From Candidatus Omnitrophota bacterium (GTDB lineage Bacteria; Omnitrophota; Gorgyraeia; Gygaellales; Profunditerraquicolaceae): a DNA stretch of 40,198 nt. Positions 1 through 19,138 of the stretch are shown here, in pieces. The stretch covers positions 1 to 40,198 of the forward strand of contig JAQUPI010000010.1 in the NCBI GenBank assembly GCA_028716705.1, given 5' to 3'. The notes under the pieces are model-generated. The model ran no database searches and was not told where the DNA came from. It saw nothing but the letters and a program-made list of their open reading frames with translations. A program made the translations under genes and the position numbers. Position 1 is the stretch's first letter. Each line of letters opens with the position of its first letter.

Positions 1-1052
1 TGAACCTGCGTTTCAAATTCCGGGTATGTCTTTCCTATCCGCACCAGGCCATTGTTCATTTCATTATATTTTATGACTTCAGGCAGATCCACGGAAACGA
101 CGGGCTTGCCCAGGGCATGGTATTCATTGAGTTTCGTGGGAAAAACAGTAGAGGTGTAATCGTTTATCTCATAAGGGATTGTGGCGACGTCAAAATATTT
201 GATGTAAGCCGGCAGCTCTGAAAACTCCTTTTTGCCCAAAAAGAAGATGTTCCTAAGGCCATCTACCGTAGAAACCTGTTCCTGGGCCGGCCCGATCAAC
301 ACAAATGACCATTCAGGATGATTAGCGGCCAGGAAAAGAAGCAATTTTAGGTCCACGTGCCGGTGTATCCCCCCGACATAACCGATTATCGGCCGGTTTA
401 TACCTCTTATATCAGCGGGAGGCTGCGAAGGGATATCTTCCTTTTCGCCAAAAACCCGGGTGTTGACCCCGAAAGGAAAAATATACACATTGTCATTCAG
501 GCGGCTGCACCTGTCTCTCAGGAATTCGCCCTGCACAAAGATCAAGTCGCTATTTTTTATTAATTCGTCCTCGGTCTTCTTTATCTTTCCGGGGTTATCC
601 GCTAACACGTGAAAATCAGCGATACAATAATAAACCAGCAATTTATGTTCCGTATTATCTATGATGTCAAGCGCTGTCCCCGTAGGAAGAAAGGTCCAGA
701 TTATCGGCTCGCGGAAATTCATCGCTTTCATCCACCTCTTTAATCCGCCGAGCAATAAATGGCTGTTTATCCAGCGGGCGATCCTGGAATAAGGAAAGGG
801 CAGGACAACGGGAGAATAAACGTAAAGGTTTCGCGCCTGTTCTCTAAACCCTTTGACGCTTTTAAGCCAGGCCACAAATCTCTTCTTCAAACGGGGAATA
901 TCTTTAAAATGGGGGACCCTTACGCCGGTATTTTCTATAAAAAGTACCCTGTTACCGTTTTGGGCAAACGCGGACATTACCTCCTGGTGCCCCTGCCAGT
1001 TAAAATCCCAGTCTATCGAAGAAATACAAATAATATCCTGGTTTCTTATCAT
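1..1052 (-). CDS. Glycosyltransferase (GT4/TuaH-like), truncated at the left window edge; absent from the supplied ORF track
   Basis: Minus-strand frame from ATG at 1052 stays open to base 1 (350 codons, no TAA/TAG/TGA). Translation begins MIRNQDIICISSIDWDFNWQGHQEVMSAFAQNGNRVLFIENTG... and contains ...IGYVGGIHRHVDLKLLLFLA...PTKLNEYHALGKPVVSVDLPE..., typical GT-B features. Confidence 0.85.
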   Translation of the reverse strand, partial: MIRNQDIICISSIDWDFNWQGHQEVMSAFAQNGNRVLFIENTGVRVPHFKDIPRLKKRFVAWLKSVKGFREQARNLYVYSPVVLPFPYSRIARWINSHLLLGGLKRWMKAMNFREPIIWTFLPTGTALDIIDNTEHKLLVYYCIADFHVLADNPGKIKKTEDELIKNSDLIFVQGEFLRDRCSRLNDNVYIFPFGVNTRVFGEKEDIPSQPPADIRGINRPIIGYVGGIHRHVDLKLLLFLAANHPEWSFVLIGPAQEQVSTVDGLRNIFFLGKKEFSELPAYIKYFDVATIPYEINDYTSTVFPTKLNEYHALGKPVVSVDLPEVIKYNEMNNGLVRIGKTYPEFETQV

Positions 1053-1271: not shown

Positions 1272-2089
1272 TTCTTGTAACCTCTGGCGATCCATCCGGC
1301 GCGGTCTTTCATTCTCGTGACAAAGATGTCTTTAAATCCGGCCCGAGAAAACAGATCGTAGACCCCTTTTTTACTGAACCTGAATTCTATCGGCGCGCTG
1401 AAACGGTCATAAAGATCCCCTTTTAGGGAAAACGGGCCCCTCCCGAAATTAAAAGGTATCTTTTGCGCTATGGAGCTCGTGGCCACAAAGTTCCTCAAGA
1501 CCTTAGCCGGAAGAGAAAATAACATGAAAACAAATGGAGAAAGAAGCCACGACAGGATATATACGGCCTGCGGAGGCAGCTTCACGGTAAACAGGCGGAT
1601 AAGGCGCACTATTTTAACCGCAGCATATTTGAAGATATTGTCCGAATGGTCCTCGTAGAGATAAATAAAAGCCGGCGCACTTCTCTTGAGAATGCGCGCG
1701 ATCTCAGCTAAGCCGCGTCCGGGACTTACGGTATGATGCAGGACACCGAAGGAATATGCGAAGTCGAAAAGATTATCTTTTATTGAGATATCTAAAATAG
1801 AGCTTTTTATTATCCGGACATTCCTAAGACCAAAGGTTAATTCTTTTGTTTTATGTACCCCATCGCTTAAATCTATGCTAACTACCATAACGTGAGGATT
1901 ATTTTTTGCCATGATATACGTATCATAACCACATCCCGAACCGATATCTATACCCATTTTACCTCTTACTAGAGGCTCATTGATTGCTTCTTCCATTTTA
2001 TTGAAATGCCACTTATCGATGGACATAATATTTTTATCCTTAGCCCATAGAAATCCGTATGTTTTTGCAGTTTTTGCTATGCTATCCAT
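1268..2089 (-). CDS. Class I SAM-dependent methyltransferase
   Basis: MGIDIGSGCGYDTYIMAK motif I, VVSIDLSDG, DFAYSFGVLHHTVSPGRGLAEIARILK. Confidence 0.85.
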   Translation of the reverse strand: MDSIAKTAKTYGFLWAKDKNIMSIDKWHFNKMEEAINEPLVRGKMGIDIGSGCGYDTYIMAKNNPHVMVVSIDLSDGVHKTKELTFGLRNVRIIKSSILDISIKDNLFDFAYSFGVLHHTVSPGRGLAEIARILKRSAPAFIYLYEDHSDNIFKYAAVKIVRLIRLFTVKLPPQAVYILSWLLSPFVFMLFSLPAKVLRNFVATSSIAQKIPFNFGRGPFSLKGDLYDRFSAPIEFRFSKKGVYDLFSRAGFKDIFVTRMKDRAGWIARGYKK

Positions 2090-2142
2090 AATTTATTAAA
2101 GATGGATTGACCCCTTATTTTCTAAAAAATGACTATATCTTA

Positions 2143-3168
2143 TCAGTTGTCTAATATGTTATTATCTATTATATACTTTGATATTGCCTGCGCTACTATA
2201 CTATGCCCTATTGATGTGGGATGGATAATATCACGTTTCATATATAAGATTTTACTCTGTTTTGCTTCTCGTTTAAAATCTTTAATAAGGTCAATATAAT
2301 AAATACCTTCTTCTTTAAAGAATTGAGATAATGGTTTATAAGAATCTTCTTCTTTATTAATAATTTGGTTCTCAAGAGGAAATATAGTAAATAGTATTTT
2401 TTTCTTATGACTTTTAACTAGAGATATCATATCACTAAAAGCTGCCTTCCAATTCTTGAAATCTTCTGGCTTAATTTCGAAGTTATAATTTTCGAGATAG
2501 CGATGGTAGCCCGCATCGCCAAACCGCATTCTCAATCCGGTAGAAAAGAAATCGTAGAAGAACTTATACAGGTCGCTCCTTTGATAAAGAAAATCAAGAT
2601 ATCTTGCTTTCGAACCATCCCTGAGATTCTCTATGACCATATTAAACCAACTTTTTTTAAGTTTCGGTTTATTATTAATATAGTCATTTAGGCATACTCC
2701 AACAATAATAAGATCAGGGTTAACAGATAATCCCTTTCCTTTTATACTCTCGAGTTCCTGCCAGGTGTTATAGCCGCCCACCCCCGCATTTATTATTTCT
2801 ATACGCTTATTGGTTTTATCCGCCAAAATCTCACCTAATCGATTAATATACCTCTGGTCTTGTGGTAAATATGTTCCTGCTGTAACTGAATCACCTACTC
2901 CTAGTATCCTAAAAATATCATCGTGTTTATCACCTATCTCTTTACCGATAAAGCCTAAGGAATTATAATAAACTTTGATACCGTACTTATTAACGAAGGC
3001 GATGCCAGGCTTATTATCGTATATTCTACTATCTCCTGTTAAAATTAGCTTATCTGTTGATTTACTTAACCAAAAAAAAGCTTTTGCAGAAAATTCCAAT
3101 AATAAAATAAAGAAAAGCAGGATCAGAGAAAGAAAAATAATATATAATCCTTTTTTTCCTATCTTCAT
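2143..3168 (-). CDS. SGNH/GDSL-type hydrolase with N-terminal membrane anchor
   Basis: RILGVGDSVTAG block I, GVGGYNTWQE, GVCLNDY block III, RDIIHPTSIGH DxxH; N-terminal hydrophobic helix. Confidence 0.8.
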   Translation of the reverse strand: MKIGKKGLYIIFLSLILLFFILLLEFSAKAFFWLSKSTDKLILTGDSRIYDNKPGIAFVNKYGIKVYYNSLGFIGKEIGDKHDDIFRILGVGDSVTAGTYLPQDQRYINRLGEILADKTNKRIEIINAGVGGYNTWQELESIKGKGLSVNPDLIIVGVCLNDYINNKPKLKKSWFNMVIENLRDGSKARYLDFLYQRSDLYKFFYDFFSTGLRMRFGDAGYHRYLENYNFEIKPEDFKNWKAAFSDMISLVKSHKKKILFTIFPLENQIINKEEDSYKPLSQFFKEEGIYYIDLIKDFKREAKQSKILYMKRDIIHPTSIGHSIVAQAISKYIIDNNILDN

Positions 3169-3235
3169 ATAATTTACCTAATTGATAAAATCACAATGCA
3201 AATGCATATGGGATAAACTAATTTTACTTTATTTT

Positions 3236-4432
3236 CTAAGGACAACCTTTATCATTATCCAAACATTTATATAGATGTAAATACTCTCCCGCGATCTTTT
3301 CTATGGAAAATTCTTTTTTTATCTTTTCCCGGGCGTTATGGCCGAGTTCATTAATAAACTTTTCATTATTTAACAACTTTTTAAGTTTCGCAGCCAATTC
3401 CTCCATATTGTTCTTTTCAAAAAGCAGACCGTCCTTGTTATCTTCAATCACATAATCGGTAATTCCTGTTAACCTTGTTGCGATACAGGCTAATCCAGAA
3501 GACATGGCTTCTAAAAGTGCGTTTGGCAATCCCTCTCTTCTTGACGGCAATATAAAGATATCTGAAGCCTGATAATATTTTTCGATCTCTAAGGTTTTCT
3601 CAATAAAAATTATCTCATTTCCCATTCTAAATTCCTCTATTTCTTTAAGCAACTTATCAAATAAATTTGTATGAGTTTGAAAATATGTTGTATTAGTAGA
3701 GCCAATGAGAACAATAGATACATTGTTATTTTGTTCAGCCCTGATTCTCTTCCAGGCAGTTATCAGCAAATCAGCGCCCTTGTCTAAATAAAGAAATCCC
3801 ACAAAAATTATTATTTTATTTTCTTCAGGAAGTTGCAATTTTCTCCTTAGTGTTTTCTTCTCAACTGGGTTGCTTAATGGGATAAATCTTTTAGTATCAA
3901 CGCCGTTGGCGATAGTAAATAACTTTTTATCTGCTATGCCACTCTGTAAAAATCTTCGCGAAATAGCAGGGCTGACACTTATAAAAATATCTGCTTTTGA
4001 GAAGAAAAACAGCCTGAGCCTCCCAAACCTTTTATTCTGAATAGATACAGGATCATCGTCACCAAAAGACGTAATTTTTTGCATGATTTTCTTTTTAAAA
4101 ATCTTGGCCAAAATAATAAAAATTATATTTTTTTGTGAAAAACCATGGAAGTGTAATATATTAATTCTTTTTCTGATCTTTAAAAATACCCGGAGGAACC
4201 AGATTAAGGACTGAACTTTAGAAAATATATGGTTAGGTCGTATGATAACCCTGTATAAATTAACATTACCTATACATTCCCGCCTGGGGAGACTAAAATC
4301 ATGGGATGTTGTTATAACATAAAAGTTAATTTTCGTATTTAAGGCATTAATGAGTGTCCAAGCCTGAATACCACCACCGCTTATTTCTGGATAAAATGCG
4401 CCAGTTAGCATGCAAATTCCAATTTTATTCAT
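3236..4432 (-). CDS. Glycosyltransferase family 4
   Basis: GGGIQAWTLINAL N-terminal motif; ANGVDTKRF; FVGFLYLDKGADLLI; PSRREGLPNALLEAMSSGLACIAT. Confidence 0.9.
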   Translation of the reverse strand: MNKIGICMLTGAFYPEISGGGIQAWTLINALNTKINFYVITTSHDFSLPRRECIGNVNLYRVIIRPNHIFSKVQSLIWFLRVFLKIRKRINILHFHGFSQKNIIFIILAKIFKKKIMQKITSFGDDDPVSIQNKRFGRLRLFFFSKADIFISVSPAISRRFLQSGIADKKLFTIANGVDTKRFIPLSNPVEKKTLRRKLQLPEENKIIIFVGFLYLDKGADLLITAWKRIRAEQNNNVSIVLIGSTNTTYFQTHTNLFDKLLKEIEEFRMGNEIIFIEKTLEIEKYYQASDIFILPSRREGLPNALLEAMSSGLACIATRLTGITDYVIEDNKDGLLFEKNNMEELAAKLKKLLNNEKFINELGHNAREKIKKEFSIEKIAGEYLHLYKCLDNDKGCP

Positions 4433-4470
4433 GGGTTTAAATTTATTAGATATAGCAATAAGTTGAAGAT

Positions 4471-5673
4471 TTAATACATAAAATAATTTTTTTGTTTATT
4501 TAAAAAATTATAAATCTCTTTCGCAACACACAAATGCCCGTATTTATTCCAATGATATTCATTTTCAATATAAAGGCGCTCTTTTTTATCTGCGTATTTC
4601 CTAAGGCCTTCTGTCAAATCTAATACCATCACATCTTCCTTATCACATATCTCTATCAGAGTCTTCTGGGGATTATCTATATCGTAATCTTCCGGAATAA
4701 GTTTATACTGATTCATTATTAAACGCCACCTGAACCCTTCCGTCTGAAATTGATCAGGGATAGTCACAACAAGTAATTTTATAGAATTATCATCAGCGAA
4801 CTTCTTTATATCTCTTAAAATTCTACCCGTGAATTCCCACTCTTTTTTTACCTCTTCAGACATATGTTTTGAATATAGACTTAATTTATCAGGCAACAGG
4901 TCAGGAACAACTACATTCATTTTTATTAACATTTTTTTAAGTACCAGAGATTCCTTTATTTTATTTGTAATAAAACAATATAATCTACTATATTTTCTAA
5001 CAAAAGCTTTAATATTCACAAAGAGATAATTTGTATTTTCTTTTATCCTATTTGCAAGCCAACCATCGATAACTGTGTAAAGACTCCCTAAATAGTTGTC
5101 TTTAATATCATTACTCATACAAAATCCTATGACGACAATATCCGGCTTAAATTTTATACCTTTTTCTTTAAGGAATTCAAATTCCTGAATTGTATTATAT
5201 CCCGATACCCCAGAATTAATCACTTCATAACGATAATTTCCATAATTCTTATTCTTTAGCAATCTCTCAATGACTTTAGGATAAGTATCTTCCATCTGGA
5301 CTTGCAAACCTGCAGTAAAAGAATCTCCAAGAACTAATATTCGAAAAACGTTCGAAGGTTTATCGTAAGAATACTCGTAATCCCTCAAGCCTTTTGAATT
5401 TATTTTAATTTTAGTATTAAAATTGAAGTCGGTTTTAAATATGCCGTTGAAATTTGGGGTATATTCATATCCTAAAGTATCGCTTGTTCTGTATAGATAC
5501 CGTGGGTGTTCGAAGGAATTCCCTCCGATCTTTAAAAATCTTAATAAAACTTCCGCTAGGGCTAAAGCTATAATTAAACTAGCTAACATTAAGATAAAGT
5601 TTAAAATAAGACTCTCGATTTTCTTATGTTTGTGCTGCATCTTGTTCCATTTTTTGAATAATCTATCAGCCAT
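4471..5673 (-). CDS. SGNH/GDSL-type hydrolase with N-terminal membrane anchor
   Basis: RILVLGDSFTAGLQV, NSGVSGYNTIQE, GFCMSND, EYHWNKYGH; hydrophobic helix near the N-terminus. Confidence 0.78.
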   Translation of the reverse strand: MADRLFKKWNKMQHKHKKIESLILNFILMLASLIIALALAEVLLRFLKIGGNSFEHPRYLYRTSDTLGYEYTPNFNGIFKTDFNFNTKIKINSKGLRDYEYSYDKPSNVFRILVLGDSFTAGLQVQMEDTYPKVIERLLKNKNYGNYRYEVINSGVSGYNTIQEFEFLKEKGIKFKPDIVVIGFCMSNDIKDNYLGSLYTVIDGWLANRIKENTNYLFVNIKAFVRKYSRLYCFITNKIKESLVLKKMLIKMNVVVPDLLPDKLSLYSKHMSEEVKKEWEFTGRILRDIKKFADDNSIKLLVVTIPDQFQTEGFRWRLIMNQYKLIPEDYDIDNPQKTLIEICDKEDVMVLDLTEGLRKYADKKERLYIENEYHWNKYGHLCVAKEIYNFLNKQKNYFMY

Positions 5674-5674
5674 A

Positions 5675-7180
5675 TTAATGGTGGTGACTGTTTTTTCTAT
5701 AAACTCTACGCAATAATTTTAAAAAACTTATTAAGAATGCTATTATAAATAATAATGGTGCTTTTACTAAATTACTGTGCTGTCTCAAGAATAACCTGAC
5801 TTCATTAAGAAATAAAATTAAATCTTTCCTTGATATCCCTATACCTATTTGAGTTTCAGAAAAATAATACCAATTTTTATAATTTCTTAGAAAATACAAC
5901 CTATTAATAAAAGACCTCATATAGAATCTTTTTGCCGTGTCTTCTATATCCGTGCGATTCAGTTGTCTAGTCTCGCATATAGGTATATCATCATGAGTCA
6001 AAAACCCCTTACTATAGAATCCGCTTCTGTGCCATGCAAAATCCTTCTTTAAGACACCGGCAGATACTATCATTTGATATAATTCTGTTCCCGGGTAAAT
6101 TGATGTAGGATTAAAAGAAATCATATCGCCTCTTAATATCTGTGAGAAATCATATGTTTCTTCCATCTCAGCATAGGTCTCCGTAGGAAAACCCAGCATA
6201 AAAAATGTTCCGACTCGTTCTATTCCTGCCTTTCTGGCAGCGTTAATTGCCTTCAAGGCCATATCTTTAGTGATATTTTTTTTAATAATATTCAATATCC
6301 TTTGGCTACCCGATTCTATACCAAAAGATATTTTATAGCATCCCGCATCCTTCATTAATTTGAATAAATTAATATCGGCAGATTCAACTCTCCCCTGACA
6401 TTCCCATTTAATATCGATCTTTCTATCTAGCAATTCTTCACAAATTTCTCTCGCCCATTCCTTATTAAGAGTGAATGTGTCATCCATAAAACGAAAATAC
6501 TTTTTACCGTAAGTACTAACTAATTCTTCTATGGAATTAATAAACTTCTGTGGAGTAATAGTTCTTATCCTCCTCTGCCAAAATTTAGGACTGCCGCAGA
6601 ATATACAGTCATTTGGACAACCGCGTGAACCCATTACGGAATACCTCGGATAACTTTTAATTGGCAAAAGAGACCAAGCAGGATTAGGTAAATCATCTAA
6701 ATCATTTATAAGCTCGCGAGGTTGATTGATTTTTACAACCCCATTCTTTCTAAATCCTATGCCTTTTATTTCGTTTAAACGCGGCTTCTGAGTGTTAAGA
6801 CAATCATGCAATTCCAAGGTGCTTAATTCGCCTTCTCCGATTACGACAAAGTCGAAATCATTAACATTCAAAAGAACATCATTCGGCAAAGCACTTATAT
6901 GATGACCGCCGCCAATAACTACCGCGCCATATTCTTTAGCGAAATGAGCTATTTTAAAAGCGACAAACCTATCATAAGTAAAAAAAGAAACCCCTACAAC
7001 ATCTGGTTTGGTAATCTTTATGTAATCCTTGATTTCATTTAAAGAATAATTCAGAATATCCGCATCTAAAATGTTAACCTCGTATCCTTTCGACTTTAAG
7101 AGAGCCGCAATAGAGGCAATACCTAAAGGCATTTCTTTCTCGCAAGATTGTCTTGGAGGATTAATTAATAATGTCTTCAT
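5675..7180 (-). CDS. B12-binding-domain radical SAM protein
   Basis: N-terminal LLINPPRQSCEKEMPLGIASIAALLKSKGYEV...GGGHHIS; radical SAM cysteines GSRGCPNDCIFCGSP; C-terminal hydrophobic segment. Confidence 0.9.
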   Translation of the reverse strand: MKTLLINPPRQSCEKEMPLGIASIAALLKSKGYEVNILDADILNYSLNEIKDYIKITKPDVVGVSFFTYDRFVAFKIAHFAKEYGAVVIGGGHHISALPNDVLLNVNDFDFVVIGEGELSTLELHDCLNTQKPRLNEIKGIGFRKNGVVKINQPRELINDLDDLPNPAWSLLPIKSYPRYSVMGSRGCPNDCIFCGSPKFWQRRIRTITPQKFINSIEELVSTYGKKYFRFMDDTFTLNKEWAREICEELLDRKIDIKWECQGRVESADINLFKLMKDAGCYKISFGIESGSQRILNIIKKNITKDMALKAINAARKAGIERVGTFFMLGFPTETYAEMEETYDFSQILRGDMISFNPTSIYPGTELYQMIVSAGVLKKDFAWHRSGFYSKGFLTHDDIPICETRQLNRTDIEDTAKRFYMRSFINRLYFLRNYKNWYYFSETQIGIGISRKDLILFLNEVRLFLRQHSNLVKAPLLFIIAFLISFLKLLRRVYRKNSHHH

Positions 7181-7195
7181 AATTCTTGATAAAGT

Positions 7196-8203
7196 TTATA
7201 TGCTCTCGGAACATCTTTTACAAATAAAACCCACTCCAGACGGTTTCTGATTATAAATCTTGCCTCTAAAATCCTGGTATTTTTCTCCTCTCCAGATTTC
7301 TAATAGACTTTCTTCCTTGACATTACCCAATACGTTCTCTTTTTTCCAATCATTACAACAGCTCACTACATCTCCATCCCACAAAATAGACATCATTGTA
7401 AACGGCCTATCTTCCAGTGTGCATCTGCGTATGATTTTTTTGTTATATCTCCTAACATTCAACTGACATATTAATTTTTCATCTAGGTTGCCCGAACGGT
7501 TTGCAGGAGATAAAAGCACATAAGGTAGATTGTTATATTTACAAAATTTCTGTCCGGACAGATAATCAAATTTTGTAAAATACCTTGTCTTTAAACAACA
7601 GATGCCTATACTAACGTCATACGACCTTGAATAATTTATAAAATTTGAAATATTATTTATAATAAGATTGTAATCCATTCCGGATACTTTTTTTAAAGTA
7701 TTATTTGTCCAGCCATGAATGCTGAAGGTTATATGATCTAATCCGGAATCCAGAATCGCGCTTGCCATCTCTTTATCCAGCATAGATGCGTTGGTATTTA
7801 TTGCGACTCTCGAAGATTTGCACTTTTCCTTTGCATATCTTATCAGTTCCCCTATCCTCTTATCCAAAAGAGGTTCGTTCATTAATGTAAGGTAAATATT
7901 TTCCACCTTAAAGTTTGCGCATTCATCAATAACTTTCTTAAATACTTGTAAATCCATAAAATTTTGGCTGCTATTTTTTCTAGTAACAGTATACGGACAA
8001 AAAATACAAGAGGCATTGCAAAAACCCGCAGTCTCAATTTCAACATTTATAGGAAATTCTGAACAAAAGGGCTTGGCATGATAACTCTTCCAACTTCTTC
8101 TGATATATTGGCTTAGATTATCTAAAGGGTATTTAATAAAAAACGGCAAGTAATAGTAGTAAACTTTTCTTATAATATTTAGCTTGCGAGTCTTATGCAT
8201 CAT
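7196..8203 (-). CDS. Radical SAM/SPASM-domain protein
   Basis: GFCNASCIFCPY CxxxCxxC; C-terminal SPASM-like SCCNDWKKENVLGNVKEESLLEIW...ICKRC. Confidence 0.88.
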   Translation of the reverse strand: MMHKTRKLNIIRKVYYYYLPFFIKYPLDNLSQYIRRSWKSYHAKPFCSEFPINVEIETAGFCNASCIFCPYTVTRKNSSQNFMDLQVFKKVIDECANFKVENIYLTLMNEPLLDKRIGELIRYAKEKCKSSRVAINTNASMLDKEMASAILDSGLDHITFSIHGWTNNTLKKVSGMDYNLIINNISNFINYSRSYDVSIGICCLKTRYFTKFDYLSGQKFCKYNNLPYVLLSPANRSGNLDEKLICQLNVRRYNKKIIRRCTLEDRPFTMMSILWDGDVVSCCNDWKKENVLGNVKEESLLEIWRGEKYQDFRGKIYNQKPSGVGFICKRCSESI

Positions 8204-8205
8204 TG

Positions 8206-9702
8206 TTAAGTAAATATCAACTTCAGTCTATTAGCTATAATCCTGACTGCTACTTTATCATCTTCATTAAACCCCAAGATAAACATGTAAGTAAATATAA
8301 AGAATGCTGCCTGCGCTAAAATAAACCATGGGCTTTTGACGATTAAGGCCTTAGATAAATATAATATACAAAATGAAACCATGCCTGCCCAAAGCGGTTT
8401 AAAGAATTTTAGGCTATATGGATGAAAACCATATAAATAGCGAACCTCTAAAATGATCAGCAATCCCATTAAAATAATAGATAAAGAATTTACAATAGCC
8501 GCCCCCAGTATCCCAAATTTAGGTATTAATATATAATTTAAAATAATACTTATTATAATTAAAGTAACCATATTTATAAAAATAATCTTTGTCCTCCCAA
8601 GCATAACTAAAATACAAGCACCAATTGCATCAGTGGCGGAGCTTATTAATAATGAAAAACTTAAAATTATAAATGCATTTGAGCCAATAACAAATTCTCG
8701 ACCAAAAATATTTAAAATCCTATTCGCATAAAAGGAAAATATTAAAAATAGCGGCACCGTCAAAGAAAAAAGCCATCTCGTAACTACCTTAAATATATGC
8801 TTCAATTCATCGATTCTGTCTTTCTCGTAAAGTTCAGACACTATTGGAGAGAAAACTGAAGTAAATGGAACAAAGAATATTGAGCACAGCACCGAAGTCC
8901 TTAATGCAATATTGTAAATGCCTACATCATATGTAGGTCGAAAATATCCTAACATTAATGTATCTATCCAACGGTATAAATAGTTAAAAATTAATATCGC
9001 AAACATGGAAAATGAATATTTTAGGAAATCATGACTGTTAAGTAAAGAAATCTTATCCATGGCGAATACCTTAAACCTCTTATGCAAAAAATAAAATGCT
9101 GCCCATAACGCGATTAATAAAGCGGCCAAATAAGAGAAGACTGCCGCATTAATTCTAAGACCGAAATAAAACAATATAACAAATAACAGGATATTAGATA
9201 AGGGTTGTAGTATGTTCTGGATTAAGACATTGTATTTGAGCGTACGGAATGCCTGAAAATAAGACAATGCTAACATTAAAATGGTAGATAAGGGAATACT
9301 AAATGCCAAATATTGTATAATATTTATTATTGAGGCATTCTTAAATAATTTGAGAGCTATCCCTTTAGACGCAAACAATATGCCAATTGAAGTGATAAAA
9401 CTTAAACAGATGCCCAATCTTATCCCTTTAAATAGAATAGCCTTTGCTTTATTTATATTATTAACTTTATACATGGAAGCATACCGTAATATTCCCGCAT
9501 CTAATCCAAATTTACCCAAAATAGCTGCAAAGCCTATAACTATTAACCCCAAGAAATACAGGCCGACCAATTCCGGGCCTAATAATCTAGCAAGGAGTAT
9601 GTTATAAATATATTTGAATATATTTTCTAAGATAACGCCTATAAATACTACCCCCGCTTGGGTTGTTATGCTAGATAAATTATCTTTAATCTCAATTTTC
9701 AT
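8206..9702 (-). CDS. Oligosaccharide flippase (Wzx/MATE-like), first copy
   Basis: Polytopic protein; LARLLGPELVGLYFLGLIVIGFAAILGKFGLDAGILRY; FRPTYDVGIYNIALR typical of Wzx. Confidence 0.88.
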   Translation of the reverse strand: MKIEIKDNLSSITTQAGVVFIGVILENIFKYIYNILLARLLGPELVGLYFLGLIVIGFAAILGKFGLDAGILRYASMYKVNNINKAKAILFKGIRLGICLSFITSIGILFASKGIALKLFKNASIINIIQYLAFSIPLSTILMLALSYFQAFRTLKYNVLIQNILQPLSNILLFVILFYFGLRINAAVFSYLAALLIALWAAFYFLHKRFKVFAMDKISLLNSHDFLKYSFSMFAILIFNYLYRWIDTLMLGYFRPTYDVGIYNIALRTSVLCSIFFVPFTSVFSPIVSELYEKDRIDELKHIFKVVTRWLFSLTVPLFLIFSFYANRILNIFGREFVIGSNAFIILSFSLLISSATDAIGACILVMLGRTKIIFINMVTLIIISIILNYILIPKFGILGAAIVNSLSIILMGLLIILEVRYLYGFHPYSLKFFKPLWAGMVSFCILYLSKALIVKSPWFILAQAAFFIFTYMFILGFNEDDKVAVRIIANRLKLIFT

Positions 9703-9708
9703 TTCGTT

Positions 9709-11607
9709 TTAATCAATAAACCTACGATGCCATAACTCAAGCATTAAAAGAGACCATAGTTGTTGGCTATAATCTATTTTTTGTCTTAAGTGTTGCTTAA
9801 TTATGTCCTTAATAAAGTCTGTATTAAAATACCCCCGATTCAAGCTTTTCTGTGATAAGAGCGTTTCAATTAATAAGCTCTTTAATTCTCCCCTAAACCA
9901 CTTACCAATAGGCACTCCAAAACCCATCTTCGGCCTATTAATATTCGCTCGAGGCACAAAATCTTTAATGATATTCTTCAATAAATACTTCTTGATCAAC
10001 CAGCTCATTTTGAAATCAACTTTTAATGATGCAACTAATTCTGCTAAACGATGGTCTAAAAAAGGCGAACGCGCCTCTAAAGAATTAGCCATAGTTGCTA
10101 TATCCATTTTAACCAATAGATCGTTTGGTAAATATGTGTTTGTATCTATATATAAAAACCTGTCTAGAAGTTCTAAATCCTCTGATTTATTAAAAAATGA
10201 TAATAAAATACCTTCGGGCTTATCTTCGGAAATGCTCTTTATAAATTCGTCCGAATATAGTCCATTTTGGAACTCATTATCGCAAATCGCAATCCAGCGC
10301 AGATATCGATCAAGTACGGGCAGGGTCACTCCTTTTAAAAAGCGCTTAAGTCGGTTAATTTTATTTTTTGAATATGGGCGATAAGGAATCCTGTTGATAA
10401 TCGGCTCGATAAAGCCGTGCCTCAAAAAAAGAGGTATTTTAGTATACCAGCAAGATATATATATTGCTCTATAACGCTCGTATCCTGCGAAGATTTCATC
10501 ACCACCGTCACCATTTAAAGCAACTGTAACATATTTCCTGGCCTGTTGTGCCACATAATAAGTAGGAATACAGGATGAATCAGCGAATGGTTCTCCATAC
10601 CGCTCTAATAATAGAGGTAATACTTCCAAGGCGTTGGGTCGCACAATAAATTCATTATGTTCGGTATCAAACCTCTTGGCAATATTCCTGGCATATTTTA
10701 GTTCGTTATAACCCTCTTCTTCAAAACCAATAGAAAAAGTCTTAACCTTTTTCTCCGTTAATTGACTCATTATGCCTACTATTGTGCTAGAATCTATCCC
10801 TCCGCTTAGGAATGCCCCCAATGGGACATCGCTGTATAAACGTTTGCGCACCGCCTCCTTAAGTAAACGAAGTACTTCTTCCGCCGCATCATTCCGGGAT
10901 ATATTTATTTTTCTAGCATAATCTAACCGCCAATATTGTTCTATAGTAATTTCTTTATCTTTTAAAATAAGAATGTGTGCGGGAGGCAACTTTAATACAT
11001 TGCAATAGATGGTCAACGGAGCAGGAATATACCCAAAGCTAAGATAATAAGGAATCGCTTGATAATTAATCTCTTTTTCTACAAATCCGCTTGCTAAAAG
11101 AGCTAAAAATTCAGAAGCAAAGCAGAATCTCCCGCTCTGGTAATAATACAGTAGCGGTTTCTTCCCGAAACGGTCCCGCGCAAGCAGCAGCATTTTGGCC
11201 CTTTGATCCCAGACGGCAAACGCGAACATGCCGTCCAGGTGTTTCGCACAATCAACGCCGTAATCTTCATAAAGGTGCAGGATGGTTTCGGTATCGGTAT
11301 TCGACTTGAACCTGTGGCCTCTTTCTTCAAGCCCTATGCGCAACTCCTTATAATTATATATCTCCCCGTTAAGGACCACCTGTATCGTGCCATCCTCATT
11401 TGACATAGGTTGATGTCCCGTATCAGAGAGGTCTATAATGCTTAGGCGCCTATGCCCTAAACCGACAGAGGGCGTTGCAGGGCCGTTAAGGTATACGCCT
11501 TCATCGTCAGGCCCCCTGTGCTTTAAACGGGAGCACATCCGGCGTAAAACCTCATCGCTTATCTTTCCCTGTGAATTGTAATCAATGATCCCGCAGATTC
11601 CGCACAT
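9709..11607 (-). CDS. asnB: Asparagine synthase (glutamine-hydrolysing)
   Basis: MCGICGI with Cys2 nucleophile; RGPDDEG; NGEIYNY; RDRFGKKPL; GAFLSGGIDSS PP-loop; NGDGGDEIFAGYERY. Confidence 0.95.
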   Translation of the reverse strand: MCGICGIIDYNSQGKISDEVLRRMCSRLKHRGPDDEGVYLNGPATPSVGLGHRRLSIIDLSDTGHQPMSNEDGTIQVVLNGEIYNYKELRIGLEERGHRFKSNTDTETILHLYEDYGVDCAKHLDGMFAFAVWDQRAKMLLLARDRFGKKPLLYYYQSGRFCFASEFLALLASGFVEKEINYQAIPYYLSFGYIPAPLTIYCNVLKLPPAHILILKDKEITIEQYWRLDYARKINISRNDAAEEVLRLLKEAVRKRLYSDVPLGAFLSGGIDSSTIVGIMSQLTEKKVKTFSIGFEEEGYNELKYARNIAKRFDTEHNEFIVRPNALEVLPLLLERYGEPFADSSCIPTYYVAQQARKYVTVALNGDGGDEIFAGYERYRAIYISCWYTKIPLFLRHGFIEPIINRIPYRPYSKNKINRLKRFLKGVTLPVLDRYLRWIAICDNEFQNGLYSDEFIKSISEDKPEGILLSFFNKSEDLELLDRFLYIDTNTYLPNDLLVKMDIATMANSLEARSPFLDHRLAELVASLKVDFKMSWLIKKYLLKNIIKDFVPRANINRPKMGFGVPIGKWFRGELKSLLIETLLSQKSLNRGYFNTDFIKDIIKQHLRQKIDYSQQLWSLLMLELWHRRFID

Positions 11608-11613
11608 ATCTAC

Positions 11614-13194
11614 TTATTTACCCGTAGGAACGATACTCTCTTTAAGTGCTTTGTATTTCATCCCGCAACCGGCGCATTTAGCCGCCTTCTTGCCGAACGC
11701 GAGCTTTACCCCGCATTTACATACCCACCCCTTGACCCTCGCCGGGCTGCCGTATGCCAGAGCGTACGCCGGGATATCCTTCGTGACCACCGCCCCCGCC
11801 CCCACAAAAGCGTATTCCCCTATCGTGTTTCCGCAGATGATGGTGGAATTGGCTCCGAGCGTCGCGCCCCGCTTTACGACGGTAGCCTTATACTCATTTT
11901 TCCTTTCTATGAAGCTCCTCGGATTGAAAACGTTCGTAAAGACCATGGAAGGCCCGCAAAACACATCGTCTTCTATTTGAACGCAGTCATAGATCGAAAT
12001 ATTGTTCTGGATCTTTACGTTATTCCCTATGCGGGCCTTTGAGCCGATGAACACATTCTGCCCTATATTGCACCCCTGCCCTATGACCGCCCCCTTCATG
12101 ACATGGGAGAAATGCCATACCTTTGACCCTTCGCCCAGTCGGGAAGGATCCTCAACGATGCTTGAAGGGTGTATGAAATATTTTTTTCTTTCCTGACCGC
12201 CGCTCTTCGGCGCCTTCAGCCATATAAGCGCGCCGTTATTTTCGAGTGATTGCTGGCAAGACTGCAATACCGAAAGGACCCGCAGCGCGCTCTTCGCGTC
12301 TGTCTTCGGCTTCCGGCGGCTTTTTACGCAATCTATAAAGTGCGCCGCTTCCAGGATAAGCGGCTCTTCCGGCTTAAAATCTATATTTTCCGCGTCTTCT
12401 TTTGTGGGAACGGGTACCCTTCCTATCCAGCTGATCTGGTGGCTGTAGAGCCTGAGCTTATTATCCCGGGCGACATCGTCAAATACCGCCATCTTCTTAT
12501 CGCCGACGACGATTAATTTTTGTTCTTTATAGGGGTGGAGCCAACTTACGAAAATATGGCCTTTTACCCCGCTCGAAAAGTTCAGGCTGCTCAACGTTAC
12601 ATCGGCGATATCGCGGTGGAGGTAATTCCCCCCGAAAGAAGAAACGCTCTCTGGCATTTCGTTAAGGAGCAGCAGGATAACGGAGATGTCGTGCGGAGCG
12701 AAACTCCATAATATATTCTCTTCCCTTCGGATCTTCCCCAGGTTGAGCCGGTTGGAATATATGTATTGTATGCGTCCTAATTCTCCCGACTCCATGGATT
12801 CTTTCAGCTTATTTATCGCCGGATGGTACTCCAGTAAATGACCTACCATCAGGATCGATTTCCTTTTCTCCGCCAGCTCATCGAGCTCAAGGCCGTCTTT
12901 TACAGTGAGTGACAGGGGCTTTTCGACAAAGACGTCTTTTCCCGATAAAAGAAGTTCCCTGGTTAAGCGGTAATGCGATTCAGCGGGCGTTGCCACTACC
13001 GCGGCGGTCAGCTGCCTGTTCTTCAGGACCTGCGTATATGAGGCCGTAATATTGACTCCGGGGTACTCTTTCCTTAATGCCTCTAGCCTGGCCGGGTCGC
13101 TGTCGCAGATCGTATCCAGGACGCCCAATTGAGAGAATACTCTCACCAGATTCTTCCCCCAATAGCCACAGCCTATTACCGCAACTCTTATCAT
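11614..13194 (-). CDS. Fusion: Gfo/Idh/MocA oxidoreductase (WlbA/WbpB-like) plus left-handed beta-helix N-acetyltransferase (WlbB/WbpD-like) with C-terminal zinc ribbon
   Basis: [20 protein letters not shown] Rossmann motif and EKPLSL; then [45 protein letters not shown] hexapeptide repeats; then WVCKCG...CAGCG. Confidence 0.88.
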
Positions 13195-14279
13195 AAATTC
13201 CTCCTGTTAGAATATTCCCTGGTTAATACCTCTATGAATTTTGGCGCGTTCGCGGAAACCGAAAACCTCTCCTCGACTGTCCTTCTGCCTGCGAGGCCTA
13301 TATCCCTGCGCAGGCCGGGGTTCTCGATCAAGATAGAAAGTTTCTCGATCCATTCTTTTTCATTGGAGGCAAAGAAGCCATTCTTCCCTTCCTCTATGAT
13401 ATCTATATTCCCGCCCACTTTCGAAACGACCGCGGGGACTCCAACGGACATGTACTGTATGGTTTTGAAGGGGGTCTTGGCCATCGAGCGTTCATCGTTC
13501 GGGAGGGGATATACGCCGATATCCAGCGACTGAAAGGCCTCCACATCGTTTTCCAGGCTCCATTGTTTATTCACGACCTTTACCCCGGGTATCGTGAATT
13601 CATCCCCTCCCCCGATCACCAGCAATTGAAAATCATATTTTTTCGCCAAGGCGGAGAAAACCCCTCTCAGCGACTTAAGGCAGTAGAGCGTCGTATGGCT
13701 GCCGATCCAACCGATCACCGGCCGCAAGGGATCTTGGCCGTAATCCCTGACCCTGAATTTTCCGGTATCGATGGAAGTGGGGATCACCGTAACGTTTTTG
13801 TTGGACCTGCTTACCAGCTCCTTCATATACCGGTTGCAGACTATGACATGGCTGCTTAAACTCACTATCTGGTAAAATCTTTTCTGGTAACGCAGCCGGT
13901 TGACGAATCTGTTGTCCCCCTTGAAATTCTCCAGGTAAACAGCGTCTTCAAAATCATAGATTATGGGTTTTTTTAGTTTAGAGAGTATCCATTCCATTAT
14001 CGCCGGCCCGAAGGGGAATGACTCGATATGCACGAATACCATGTCGTATTTTGAGGCGCTTGCGAGGTCGCGCAGGCGCTTGCAGAAAGCAAAAGTAAAA
14101 AATAGGGCTTTCTTTAAGGTATGGCCCTTCCTGTAAAGGATTTTAAAGAATTTAGAGGAAATAAAAGGCCGCATCGCGTACTCGATCCCCCGCTCCCCCA
14201 GGTAAGGCAGAAATTGCTCGATCCTGTAACGGTTGCTTGGGCCCTCCGTGGGATATGGAATGATGAAGAGTATTTTCAT
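13191..14279 (-). CDS. Glycosyltransferase (GT4-like)
   Basis: Pattern [76 protein letters not shown]. Confidence 0.87.
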
Positions 14280-15586
14280 TGTCTATTTCTGTCCGCCTCC
14301 ATGGCTGCCTTCCTGCCGCTGAGTATCGCCTCGTCCATCCAGAGATATTTCCATTCTCCATAGCGGCCCGCGCTGTAAACAGAATACCGCCTCAGGAATT
14401 TCTGTATAATGTCCAGGTTTCTAACGCGCTGGTGGTCGTAAATAACATAGGCGTATTTTATGTCGTCAGTGCCGATCAGCTTTACCTTCTGCCTGGGCTT
14501 TATGATCCGGGCAGAGATAAGGTCGGCGACCACTTTTTCTGTTATAGAGCGCTTAGAAATGGGCCTTTTTTGAGAATAGGATATTTCCGCCTGTATCGAA
14601 CTCCATCCTTTCGGAACAGTTGAAGCGGAAAAGTTCCTGGGGAAACTGATACGGAAAGGCGCGAACTTGTCTTCGGGGAAATATATCCAATGCGCTTTGT
14701 TTAAATTCGCGCCTTTAACCCCCAAGTTTACGCAAAAAACCGAATTATACCTGAGCGCTGCCGCGGCTGTCTTTACCTGAGACGGAATACCGTCGATCAT
14801 CTTCACTAATTCGGGCAGAGGTATGGTAGAGATCAAATCCCTGAAATAGGCCTTCCTCCCGCCGGTAAAGACAACGGATCTGTTGACCAGGTCGACCCTG
14901 GCGGCTTTTTCTCCAAGGTGAATTATCGCGTTTTTTCCCGCCAGCGCCTGCGGAATACTCTGGATCCCGCCCCGGCGGGGGTATTGGAATAAGGAGTTCG
15001 GGCCGAATTCTTCTTTTTGTATCGAAAGCGCCCCGGCGATCACCTGTTCAATTCTCGGCCGGGGAACCCGTACATCCAGCCAATCTGTGGTCAGCTCCCT
15101 GGCCCCGACGGTCCAGAATTTCCTGCTGTAAGGAAGATAAAAATTATCCGCTATCCCTTTGCCGAATGCTCCGTATATCCAGTCTTCGTAATTATCGTAT
15201 TTCCGGCGCGGGTTATTAAAAGTGCCGATGAATCCTTCAAGGCATTCGGAAATAATGCGGCGGGGAAGGCCGAAAGTATTGGCCTGAAACGGGTATTTTG
15301 TCAAAACCCCATGCGAATAGATCCATGCGGACCTTTTCCTCTTCTCTAATCCCGGGCGCTCCCTGCCCGACAAGAGCCCCAGGACATACTTATTTTTAGT
15401 ATGCAAAACGTGTATCCCCTTGTCAAAGGTGTAGCCCCCGATGCTGAGGGATCCGCAGGTGCCCCCGATCCCGCGTTCTTTTTCATATATAACTCCGCCG
15501 CGGCGGGAGGCGCTTAAGCCGGCTAAACCCGCGCCCAGGATCACGGTGTCTCTTGCTACGGGCAGGTCATTCATCGTTGAATTCAT
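14276..15586 (-). CDS. FAD-dependent oxidoreductase, protoporphyrinogen-oxidase/UDP-galactopyranose-mutase-like
   Basis: VILGAGLAGLSAS...VIYEKERGIGGTCGSLSIGGYTFDKGIHVLHTKNKYV; C-terminal YSAGRYGEWKYLWMDEAILSGRKAA. Confidence 0.8.
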   Translation of the reverse strand: MNSTMNDLPVARDTVILGAGLAGLSASRRGGVIYEKERGIGGTCGSLSIGGYTFDKGIHVLHTKNKYVLGLLSGRERPGLEKRKRSAWIYSHGVLTKYPFQANTFGLPRRIISECLEGFIGTFNNPRRKYDNYEDWIYGAFGKGIADNFYLPYSRKFWTVGARELTTDWLDVRVPRPRIEQVIAGALSIQKEEFGPNSLFQYPRRGGIQSIPQALAGKNAIIHLGEKAARVDLVNRSVVFTGGRKAYFRDLISTIPLPELVKMIDGIPSQVKTAAAALRYNSVFCVNLGVKGANLNKAHWIYFPEDKFAPFRISFPRNFSASTVPKGWSSIQAEISYSQKRPISKRSITEKVVADLISARIIKPRQKVKLIGTDDIKYAYVIYDHQRVRNLDIIQKFLRRYSVYSAGRYGEWKYLWMDEAILSGRKAAMEADRNRQ

Positions 15587-16442
15587 TCAAATACTCTCTT
15601 AGCGCCTCTTCCCAGGGCCGCATTTTTATCCCCAGCAATTTTAACTTGTAATTATCCACTACTTCCGAACGCGGCCTCGGGGCCGGCAGGGGAAAGGCTG
15701 CCGACGATATCGGCTTGATAGCCACGTTATTTTTTTTCAAGTATTCGACGATCTTACAGGCGATGTCATAGCGCGACGCCTGGCCTTCGTTGGTAATATG
15801 GTATAAGCCGTAGCGGGCCAGGTCCACAACCTTAAGCATGCCTTCAGAGAAATCTTTGGTGTAAGTAGGGCAGCCGAACTTATCATTGACTACCGATATG
15901 GCGTCTTTTGTCTTAAGCAGTTCCACTATCTTGGCCACAAACTTCTTGTCTTTTTTCCCTCCGCCGATCATCCAGCCGGCGCGGAATATGAAATATCTCC
16001 TCAGCAGGCAGCGCACGGCCTTTTCTCCCTCGTATTTAGACTTTGTATAAATGCTTATCGGCGAGGGCGCGTCGAATTCGTTGTAAGGCGCCTCTTTTGT
16101 GCCGTCGAATACCCCGCAGGTACTTACATAAACCATGGCGATATCGTATCGCTGGCAGCTCAACGCGACATTCTCCGTGCCCAGGGTGTTTATTTTATAA
16201 GCGTGGTCTACTTCTATCTCGCATCTATCCACGTCAGTCTCGGCTGCGGCGTGGAAAATTAGATCGGGCTTGGAGCGCTTAATGAAATCATTCACGGCTT
16301 TTAGATCGGTAATATCCAGGTAATCCATTGCCGGGGTGGTTGAGCCGATGTCGGTCGGAGATACTTCGTAGCCCTTTTTTGCCAATTCCTTGCATAATGC
16401 CGTCCCAAGCATTCCCGCGGCCCCTGTCACCAATACTTTCAT
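15567..16442 (-). CDS. RmlD/RfbD-like SDR (dTDP-4-dehydrorhamnose reductase family)
   Basis: VLVTGAAGMLGTALCKEL; LIFHAAAETDVDRCE; VSTCGVFDG; YTKSKYEGE (YxxxK); GWMIGGG. Confidence 0.85.
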   Translation of the reverse strand: MKVLVTGAAGMLGTALCKELAKKGYEVSPTDIGSTTPAMDYLDITDLKAVNDFIKRSKPDLIFHAAAETDVDRCEIEVDHAYKINTLGTENVALSCQRYDIAMVYVSTCGVFDGTKEAPYNEFDAPSPISIYTKSKYEGEKAVRCLLRRYFIFRAGWMIGGGKKDKKFVAKIVELLKTKDAISVVNDKFGCPTYTKDFSEGMLKVVDLARYGLYHITNEGQASRYDIACKIVEYLKKNNVAIKPISSAAFPLPAPRPRSEVVDNYKLKLLGIKMRPWEEALREYLNEFNDE

Positions 16443-16451
16443 TAAAACCTC

Positions 16452-17675
16452 CTATTTTGATAATTCCAGGTAAATACGCCGGTATTTATCTATCCCGTCG
16501 CTTAACGAGAAATATTTCCTTGCCGCTCCTACGCAGCGTTCCCGCAAAACGCCGTTCTCCTTAAAAAGGCGCGTTAACTGTTCCGCGCAGGAACGATATT
16601 CCTCATCGGTAAATTCTTTTATGACCAACCCGGCCTTTTCCGCATCCAGCATCCTATCGCTGTCCCCGATCCCCTTGTTTATCACCACAGGCAATCCGCT
16701 GGCCAGGAATTCCGCCAGTTTTGTGGGGGAAGAAGCGTACTTGGATACTACCGGCTTAATGAAACAGATTGCGCAATCCGCGGACCTGAGGAACTGCGGG
16801 ACTTCCGAGAAATCCGCTGTCTTGATCGTAAAATCCCCTGCCGAAAGCCCTTTTCGCGAAATAGCTTTTCTGGCTATCCCGTGATCGCTCATCGTCAAGA
16901 TAAGGAAGTGCGCGTTCGGGATGATCTTCCCGGCGCAGCTAAAAAAATCTATCATTTCGCTCAAAAGATACCACGTCCCCAGAGAACCGGAATAGACAAA
17001 AACGAATTTTCCTTCAAGCCCAAGTCTGGATTTCGCTTCTTTTCCCTCAGCGCGTTTAAAGCGGGATATGTCCACGCAACAGGGGATGATCCGGGTTTTA
17101 TCGCGAAGATTCAATGACGGCCGGTTCTCAACGAGCCAGTCTTTCATCTTTTGCGTCAGGACCACCACGCGGTCAGAGCTGGCGAGTAATTTATTGTCTA
17201 TTGAGATCATCGCTTTATATAAAAAAGAGCTTCGGCCTTTCCACATTCCGCCTTCCACGTAATCCTCCGCCATAAAGCCCCTTCTGTCATATAGCATCTT
17301 TTTACGAAAAAACCGGCTTACGATATAACCGATAACTGAAGCTACCTCGGATCGGCAGTGGATGATCGCTATATCCTCCTTGACCGTGTAAAACGCGGCG
17401 GCAAAAACCCCGCACACAATGTTAAAAGCCTTTGCCAAAAGATAAGGTTTACGGTAATAATTGAGCGAGTGCCAGATGATATTATTCTTTGCAAGATCAT
17501 CGCGCATTATTTCTTTTTGCCGGCCGGACCGCAAAAGACGCGGTTTATCAAAAGAAAGCCAATGAAAAATATACCCGTCCCCCGATAATTCCTTCAGGTA
17601 AGGGATAACCTGCGACTGGGGGATCGGCTCCAGCGCGCTGTCATAAGAAATATAAAGGACCTTCACGGCTCTCAT
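16452..17675 (-). CDS. Glycosyltransferase (GT4-like)
   Basis: VLYISYDSALEPIPQSQVIPYLKELS; FVYSGSLGTWYLLSEMIDFF; PTKLAEFLASGLPVVIN. Confidence 0.85.
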   Translation of the reverse strand: MRAVKVLYISYDSALEPIPQSQVIPYLKELSGDGYIFHWLSFDKPRLLRSGRQKEIMRDDLAKNNIIWHSLNYYRKPYLLAKAFNIVCGVFAAAFYTVKEDIAIIHCRSEVASVIGYIVSRFFRKKMLYDRRGFMAEDYVEGGMWKGRSSFLYKAMISIDNKLLASSDRVVVLTQKMKDWLVENRPSLNLRDKTRIIPCCVDISRFKRAEGKEAKSRLGLEGKFVFVYSGSLGTWYLLSEMIDFFSCAGKIIPNAHFLILTMSDHGIARKAISRKGLSAGDFTIKTADFSEVPQFLRSADCAICFIKPVVSKYASSPTKLAEFLASGLPVVINKGIGDSDRMLDAEKAGLVIKEFTDEEYRSCAEQLTRLFKENGVLRERCVGAARKYFSLSDGIDKYRRIYLELSK

Positions 17676-19138
17676 TTATAAAATAACATCCTTATCTTAT
17701 TGCGTACCTTATCCATGATCCTGCGGTAGATCAAGAAACGCAGCATTTGGTTCTCGATCTCCTGGACAACGGGCAGCATGTACACCCATGCTATCAGATA
17801 ATTAAAAGGCCGGATCCCGCGCAGGGTCTTCGCTATCGTGCGGCGCTTGACGAAGCGTTCTATCGACTTTCCCTTCTTAAGCGCTCTTACGCGTTCTTTC
17901 CTCGTGAAGTATGGCGTTTCAAACACGGGGTTGCAGGACATCTGAATGAATGAACCCATGTTCAAATATACTTCCGGATCTATCAGGAAGTAATTTTTCT
18001 CTTTGACCCAGGTGAAAAGTTCGGTTGAGGGCAAAGGTATGAGGTTAAAGAAATTCACGTGCGATATAGGATAAGACAGCGCGATATTGACCGAATCCTG
18101 GAAATCCCCGGGTGTTTCTTCCGGGGAGCCGACAATAAAAAACAGGCTGACAAAAAAGCCCAGGTCGCACGCCTCCCCCACCGCCTTCTTTATCACCTCG
18201 ATGGTCTCGCCCTTCTTTATGCTCTTCAGGACTTTGTCATTACCCGCTTCCACGCCAAAGCCGAGCCGTTTAAAGCCTACTTCCTTCATGCGCTTTAGTA
18301 TCTGGCGGTCGACCTTGTCCGCCCTGACCCCGTTACCGCACATGATCACCAGGCCCTTGAGGCTCCTTCGCTCTATCTCATCGCATAATTCAAATATCCG
18401 GTCCCGGTTAAAAGTCGGATTATCTTCCTGCAGGTCAAATTCACGGTAACCCCGCCTGTACCAATATTCAATTTCGTCCGCTATACGCGCGGCGCCCCTT
18501 GCCCTGAATTTCCTTCTTGTCACAGACGCTGTACAGTAGATACATGCGTAGGGGCAGCCCCGGGAAGAGACTATGCACACCCCGTAGCCGTACTTTCCCA
18601 GCTCAAATCCGTCATATTTTGGGTAGGGCAGCATATCGAGAGAGACTTCCTGGTTCGCGGAAAGGGAGTTTTCAATGATCCCGTTCGCGTCCCTGTAGAT
18701 CAATCCCGGTATCCGCGATAATTCCTCGCCGCGGCATAGGGAAAACGCCGGCAGCTCGCCTTCCTGCATGATCCCAAAGTCTATTGCCGGGCACTCTTTT
18801 AAAACTCCCGATTTCATAGTGGATACGTGCGGCCCTCCGACCAGGATGGGCATGCCGGGAAAATCGCGCTTTATGGAATTTATGAACTTATAGTGCTTTT
18901 TATACATAAAGCTCATCATCGAGATGCCTATCAAATCGGGCTTGGCGGCCAGGATGCATCTCCTCAGCTCCTCTTCGGTATGCCCCAGGGTCATATCAAA
19001 AACGGAACACTTGACGCCTTGGGATCTTAGGAATTCGGCAATATAACCTATGCCGACAGGAATAACCGGCATGGTAAATTTCGTTGAGGGGTACGCGAGG
19101 TTTACGAGCAGGACATTATTGAACCGGGACATTATCAC
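17672..19138 (-). CDS. B12-binding-domain radical SAM protein
   Basis: MPVIPVGIGYIAEFLRSQGVKCSVFD...LVGGPHVS; SSRGCPYACIYCTAS. Confidence 0.9.
   Translation of the reverse strand: MIMSRFNNVLLVNLAYPSTKFTMPVIPVGIGYIAEFLRSQGVKCSVFDMTLGHTEEELRRCILAAKPDLIGISMMSFMYKKHYKFINSIKRDFPGMPILVGGPHVSTMKSGVLKECPAIDFGIMQEGELPAFSLCRGEELSRIPGLIYRDANGIIENSLSANQEVSLDMLPYPKYDGFELGKYGYGVCIVSSRGCPYACIYCTASVTRRKFRARGAARIADEIEYWYRRGYREFDLQEDNPTFNRDRIFELCDEIERRSLKGLVIMCGNGVRADKVDRQILKRMKEVGFKRLGFGVEAGNDKVLKSIKKGETIEVIKKAVGEACDLGFFVSLFFIVGSPEETPGDFQDSVNIALSYPISHVNFFNLIPLPSTELFTWVKEKNYFLIDPEVYLNMGSFIQMSCNPVFETPYFTRKERVRALKKGKSIERFVKRRTIAKTLRGIRPFNYLIAWVYMLPVVQEIENQMLRFLIYRRIMDKVRNKIRMLFYK

Follow-up and report, generated by a model that had tools for sequence, protein, structure and literature searches.

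A block of about 9.4 kb within a surface-glycan cluster of an Omnitrophota bacterium is sharply set off by its composition, and both of its edges lie inside genes. We put the probability at roughly two in three that an AT-rich cassette here replaced the resident content of a variable slot, with crossovers inside asnB and inside a methyltransferase gene (MT). The DNA analysed (henceforth 'the window') comprises 40,198 nucleotides and is the whole of contig C10 of a 1.87-Mb MAG in 90 contigs, which is 93.6% complete with contamination estimated at 0.66%. The named relatives among the best matches of the window AsnB are Candidatus Omnitrophota.

Maximum-likelihood segmentation of the whole window returned exactly two GC breaks, at 1766 (dLL 52) and 11121 (dLL 340), and these separate a left flank, an island and a right flank with GC of 0.455, 0.328 and 0.492, respectively. 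The GC drop near 1740 and the rise near 11.1 kb in the original prediction are therefore real. As host background we sampled the same MAG in 20 stretches of 20 kb each (mean GC 0.477), where GC below 0.34 occurred in just 0.14% of 3-kb windows. The tetranucleotide correlation with the genome was 0.75 for the island compared to at least 0.82 for host pieces of the same size, and 0.95-0.96 for pieces of the right flank; GC3 was 0.29-0.33 in genes wholly inside the island versus 0.51-0.64 in the right flank. Both of these measures, which had been proposed as checks, thus place the island off the host background, and its composition is extreme for, and alien to, the host genome. The intergenic gaps of the island (53, 67, 38, 1, 15, 2 and 6 nt) are larger than those of the right flank, where 16 of the 23 junctions overlap (Mann-Whitney p 0.006), so the wider spacing predicted for the island also holds, on gap lengths that depend on mechanically assigned start codons. 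No integrase, transposase, tRNA, Rfam RNA, att-like site or strong or flanking repeat was found among the island genes and at the borders, and both junction regions are unique within the host MAG.

Table 1. Positions of the island, its junctions and the genes in and around it
Feature	Position	Strand	Remarks
AT-rich island, GC 0.328	1767..11121		cassette with the neighbouring portions of MT and asnB
Left compositional junction, best 1766	1721..1793		3-unit support interval; MT codons 99-123
Right compositional junction, best 11121	11069..11176		3-unit support interval; asnB codons 144-180
Glycosyltransferase GT3, constant downstream module	3..1052	-	cut by contig end
SAM-dependent methyltransferase (MT), 273 aa	1268..2089	-	spans left junction
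SGNH/GDSL protein 1 (SGNH1), 341 aa	2143..3168	-	52% identical to the gene directly after asnB in G348 (L191)
GT4-type glycosyltransferase, 398 aa	3236..4432	-	Pfam
SGNH/GDSL protein 2 (SGNH2), 400 aa	4471..5673	-	Pfam
B12-binding radical SAM protein, 501 aa	5675..7180	-	Pfam; best family match about 40% identity
Radical SAM / SPASM protein, 335 aa	7196..8203	-	Pfam
Polysacc_synt (Wzx-type) flippase, 498 aa	8206..9702	-	Pfam
asnB-like amidotransferase, 632 aa	9709..11607	-	GATase_7; spans right junction
Gfo/Idh oxidoreductase fused to hexapeptide acetyltransferase (GfoAT), flank	11614..13194	-	Pfam
Constant upstream module: GT5, NAD-oxidoreductase-like, SDR, GT6, radical SAM 2 (rSAM2)	13191..19138	-	

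All island genes are of types found in glycan clusters, as judged by Pfam. Transcription runs from right to left, in the flank through rSAM2, GT6, SDR, the NAD-oxidoreductase-like gene, GT5 and GfoAT to asnB, and then through the flippase, SPASM rSAM, B12 rSAM, SGNH2, GT4, SGNH1, MT and GT3. The upstream module recurs in identical order in the relative G348 (L191; 48-65% identity), and in several relatives MT is immediately followed by GT3. The flippase, glycosyltransferase, SGNH and radical SAM genes sit in a polysaccharide-type cluster, as expected for an exposed structure, and the product of the cassette is predicted to be exported to the cell surface. Elsewhere in the window, we observed that 25144-26895 (minus strand), in the glycan cluster, encodes a fusion of a pyruvate-kinase barrel (PF00224) and a MobA-like NTP transferase (PF12804). 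The gene adjoins an ATP-sulfurylase (23981-25147); in a sample of 126 other genomes of the order, no homologue of the fusion reached E≤1e-60, and host contig C22 carries a weaker 36% match. A further gene (28544-30376, minus strand) encodes a PAP2 phosphatase domain, the only domain shown by Pfam, with a long C-terminal extension that by eye resembles a PHP-type domain.

The right junction lies close to where the glutaminase domain of asnB ends (Pfam GATase_7, residues 52-172). When the break was fitted inside each border gene alone, the best positions were codon 107 of MT (1768) and codon 162 of asnB (11121), and since these single-gene fits coincide with the window-wide breaks, the steps are sharp and the profile is step-like rather than gradual, as had been anticipated. 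GC3 in asnB is 0.57 in codons 1-160 and 0.33 in the rest, and in MT it is 0.30 in codons 1-108 and 0.56 in the rest. The log-likelihood gain of the asnB step is 16.1 compared to a maximum of 9.8 in 243 sampled host ORFs of at least 200 aa, and that of the MT step is 9.8, a value as high as which was seen in one of the 243. Homologues of asnB differ in GC3 between halves by about 0.02 on average and have no comparable step, so the step in the window gene is not intrinsic to asnB. In relatives of MT the difference between halves averages 0.00 (SD 0.08), and G389 alone is similar (-0.22). The MT of this genome (contig C1, L230) has a GC3 of 0.41 in its N part and 0.63 in its C part and is directly preceded by an AT-richer gene; perhaps this border underwent a separate swap in G389. 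Three host genes also stood out for strong GC3 steps within the gene (LLR 9.3-9.8), at C12:3863-4633, C9:10187-11779 and C8:2175-2963, which by reading of the sequence are MreC-like, peptide-binding-protein-like and ABC-ATPase-like, respectively.

The borders had been predicted to fall inside conserved motifs of the two genes. Their location within asnB and MT is confirmed, but the motif part holds only loosely: conservation across the support interval is at the 85th percentile in MT and the 51st in asnB, where the motif RDRFGKKPL (codons 144-152) is at the outer edge of the interval. The exact DNA runs that asnB shares with its homologues are longest around codons 260-280, away from the junction, and those shared with relatives of about 60% identity reach at most 26 nt, with no listed run at the junction. 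We therefore rejected the targeting of crossovers by conserved motifs, which is unsupported for asnB.

The affinities of the two halves of asnB are suggestive of incongruence. The N half is closest to G005 (69% identity) and G222 (68%), about 8 points above the expectation based on the C half (z 2.2 and 2.1, respectively). The C half clusters with G030, G049, G160, G021 and others (support 84/93), and its grouping with G222 and G005 is marginally rejected at an AU p of 0.045, which is not decisive because it is one of several contrasts tried. The tree of the N half (160 columns) has no resolution, with AU p values of 0.27 for G222 and G005 and 0.10 for the group of the C half. The half-gene phylogenies that had been suggested thus place the C half elsewhere, but the N half rejects neither placement and the conflict is not significant. 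For MT, whose halves were compared by pairwise identities only, G348 is in relative terms the nearest genome to the N part (z 2.55), and the best relative of the neighbouring SGNH1 lies in G348 as well; this is consistent with a swap, at a strength limited by the fact that G348 is closest for several host-side genes too. G348 was rejected as the donor, since the asnB AU tests give no support to it and the affinity of SGNH1 and the MT N part does not discriminate. A displaced asnB C half was also sought elsewhere in the host genome, where the other full Asn_synthase match, on contig C17, is a distant paralogue only.

The neighbourhoods that we read in other Omnitrophota share a frame, with GT5 and asnB upstream and GT3, with or without a preceding MT, downstream, and with differing genes in between. 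The slot holds six genes in the window, seven in G093, four in G030, three each in G222 and G090, two in L101 and none in G170 and G306, where GT3 directly adjoins asnB. Pfam scans cover four of the relatives' slot proteins, and the other labels given here come from reading of the sequence or from similarity to window proteins. The slot of L101 contains GT2 and a radical SAM protein; that of G222 an acetyltransferase, a transglutaminase-like protein and a flippase; that of G090 a transglutaminase-like protein, GT4 and a radical SAM protein; that of G030 a flippase and two methyltransferases among its four genes; and that of G093 a flippase, an SGNH protein, a polymerase-like membrane protein, GT2 and a radical SAM protein among its seven. 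On the G348 contig asnB is followed by its SGNH1 homologue, a transglutaminase-like protein and the contig end. The same locus thus carries different genes of similar function in G222, G090, G093, G030, L101, G170 and the window. Since MT-GT3 lies far from asnB in G160, and on contigs without asnB in several relatives, the frame is recurrent and not universal. The nearest relatives found have about 60-65% protein identity.

The flippases in the slots of G093, G222 and G030 are 42-49% identical to each other, and the window flippase has no match to them at 1e-10; by this comparison it is unrelated to the slot flippases of relatives. Of 383 other Omnitrophota, only 6 had a match to the window flippase at E≤1e-30, with identities of 25-34%. 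The transglutaminase-like protein occurs in the slot of four genomes (47-49% identity) and is absent from the window slot. Queries with the G222 proteins for displaced resident genes elsewhere in the host (a MAG 93.6% complete) gave no match for the transglutaminase-like protein and only 22-26% identity for the flippase. A GC change point lies 8 bp from the asnB 3' end in G348 (L191, at about 7130), and in G090 (L188/L189) one follows the asnB stop by 94 bp. A phylum-wide GC drop downstream of asnB was rejected: it is absent from 28 asnB loci when these are compared to the upstream side (Wilcoxon p 0.72).

With sharp intragenic steps at both ends and a slot that varies among relatives, replacement by recombination fits best. 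The island would represent the locally specific part of the surface-glycan cluster, in a slot bounded by asnB upstream and MT/GT3 downstream, and the resident genes of this slot would have been swapped for the flippase, SPASM rSAM, B12 rSAM, the two SGNH genes and GT4. The donor would have been more AT-rich than the host and was probably another member of the Omnitrophota. Most likely, a donor fragment spanning asnB, the cassette and MT recombined with the host copy, with one crossover near codon 162 of asnB and the other near codon 108 of MT, and the expected outcome would be in-frame chimeric flank genes and an altered exported glycan. That a foreign cassette occupies a variable slot is very probable; that the crossovers within asnB and MT were homologous is probable. 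The cassette swap put forward in the original prediction is accordingly upheld by composition, intragenic steps and gene order, but not as regards recombination at conserved motifs in asnB.

An assembly chimera, in which a host contig was joined to a related AT-rich Omnitrophota contig at short identical stretches of asnB and MT, could in principle produce the same mosaic, and the 90 contigs of the MAG, the presence of both border genes in other Omnitrophota and the length of the left flank, just 1.8 kb, would all be compatible with it. However, the assembly would have to have been misjoined twice independently, in frame and at corresponding sites, between genomes that share only short exact runs, of which none was listed at the asnB junction, and we therefore regard a chimera as unlikely; the uniqueness of both junction regions in the genome, the low contamination estimate and the recurrence of the window gene order in other genomes also argue against it.

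Non-homologous or stepwise gain of genes, with the steps in asnB and MT produced afterwards by amelioration of codon use or by a local bias in mutation, is similarly improbable. Low GC is common in flippase and glycosyltransferase genes (PMC3715488, PMC11898729) and the half-gene trees of asnB are without significant conflict, both as this explanation would have it, but amelioration affects whole genes whereas the steps are sharp and intragenic, the asnB step is absent from homologues in other genomes, and tetranucleotide use is alien too. Insertion of an integrative element, transposon or phage would account for the foreign composition and for nothing else that we observed: the island genes are all of glycan-cluster types and neither the hallmark genes, tRNA, att-like sites or flanking repeats searched for nor defined ends were found, so we rejected the identity of a mobile genetic element and consider such an insertion very improbable.

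Replacement of the slot content has parallels in known systems. For replacement flexible genomic islands of aquatic prokaryotes, homologous recombination in the borders has been proposed (Lopez-Perez et al. 2014, PMC4033161). The window island fits this kind in its surface-glycan functions, constant chromosomal location, lineage-specific genes, conserved borders and lack of hallmarks of illegitimate recombination at the borders. Those islands, however, were described between strains of a single species, where the islands are nearly identical and synonymous SNPs peak at the borders, whereas the relatives of the window island are about 60% identical and the evidence at its borders is compositional. 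In Salmonella rfb/O-antigen clusters GC is lowest centrally and junctions lie inside shared flank genes such as rml (PMC3715488), which resembles the low-GC central flippase and glycosyltransferase block within shared flank genes seen here, with GC higher away from the centre; the genes are different, the window flanks being asnB and MT, and no O-antigen polymerase was recognised in the window cassette. O-chain clusters of Pelagibacterales, likewise from uncultured aquatic bacteria, also have GC below that of the genome, but mostly vertical inheritance with old transfers was inferred for them (PMC11898729). The best NCBIfam model of the window asnB, TIGR03108, points to XrtA/PEP-CTERM exopolysaccharide clusters, but its score of 643.5 bits is below the curated cut-off of 816.9, on which ground we rejected the gene as an XrtA/PEP-CTERM amidotransferase, and the window genes that were scanned included no recognisable exosortase.

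Swapping of surface genes is familiar from other systems; what appears to be new is a recurrent slot for it in Omnitrophota, and a non-exhaustive search of the literature gave no account of islands of this kind in the phylum. A tentative extension is that surface-glycan cassettes recurrently recombine into the slot downstream of asnB across the phylum, between border genes of about 60% protein identity; if true, this would mean active DNA exchange and switching of glycan type in an uncultured phylum. The two mapped crossover intervals provide a concrete locus where metagenomes could be used to examine surface-glycan switching in these possibly predatory or symbiotic bacteria, and the results suggest that asnB and MT could serve as anchors to locate the type-specific part of such clusters.

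Giant ORFs are already known in Omnitrophota (PMC10066038), and two very long frames came up in this work. A flippase-like match at G347:C45:80005-81459 (L249) falls inside a frame that stays open for 24,502 aa, possibly a giant ORF that overlaps or contains it. On host contig C6 (L066, L196), a single frame on the minus strand of bases 1-40000, identical in both stretches, is open for at least 40 kb, or at least 13,300 codons, and a segment with a GC of 0.34 (C6:4219-8411) lies within it.
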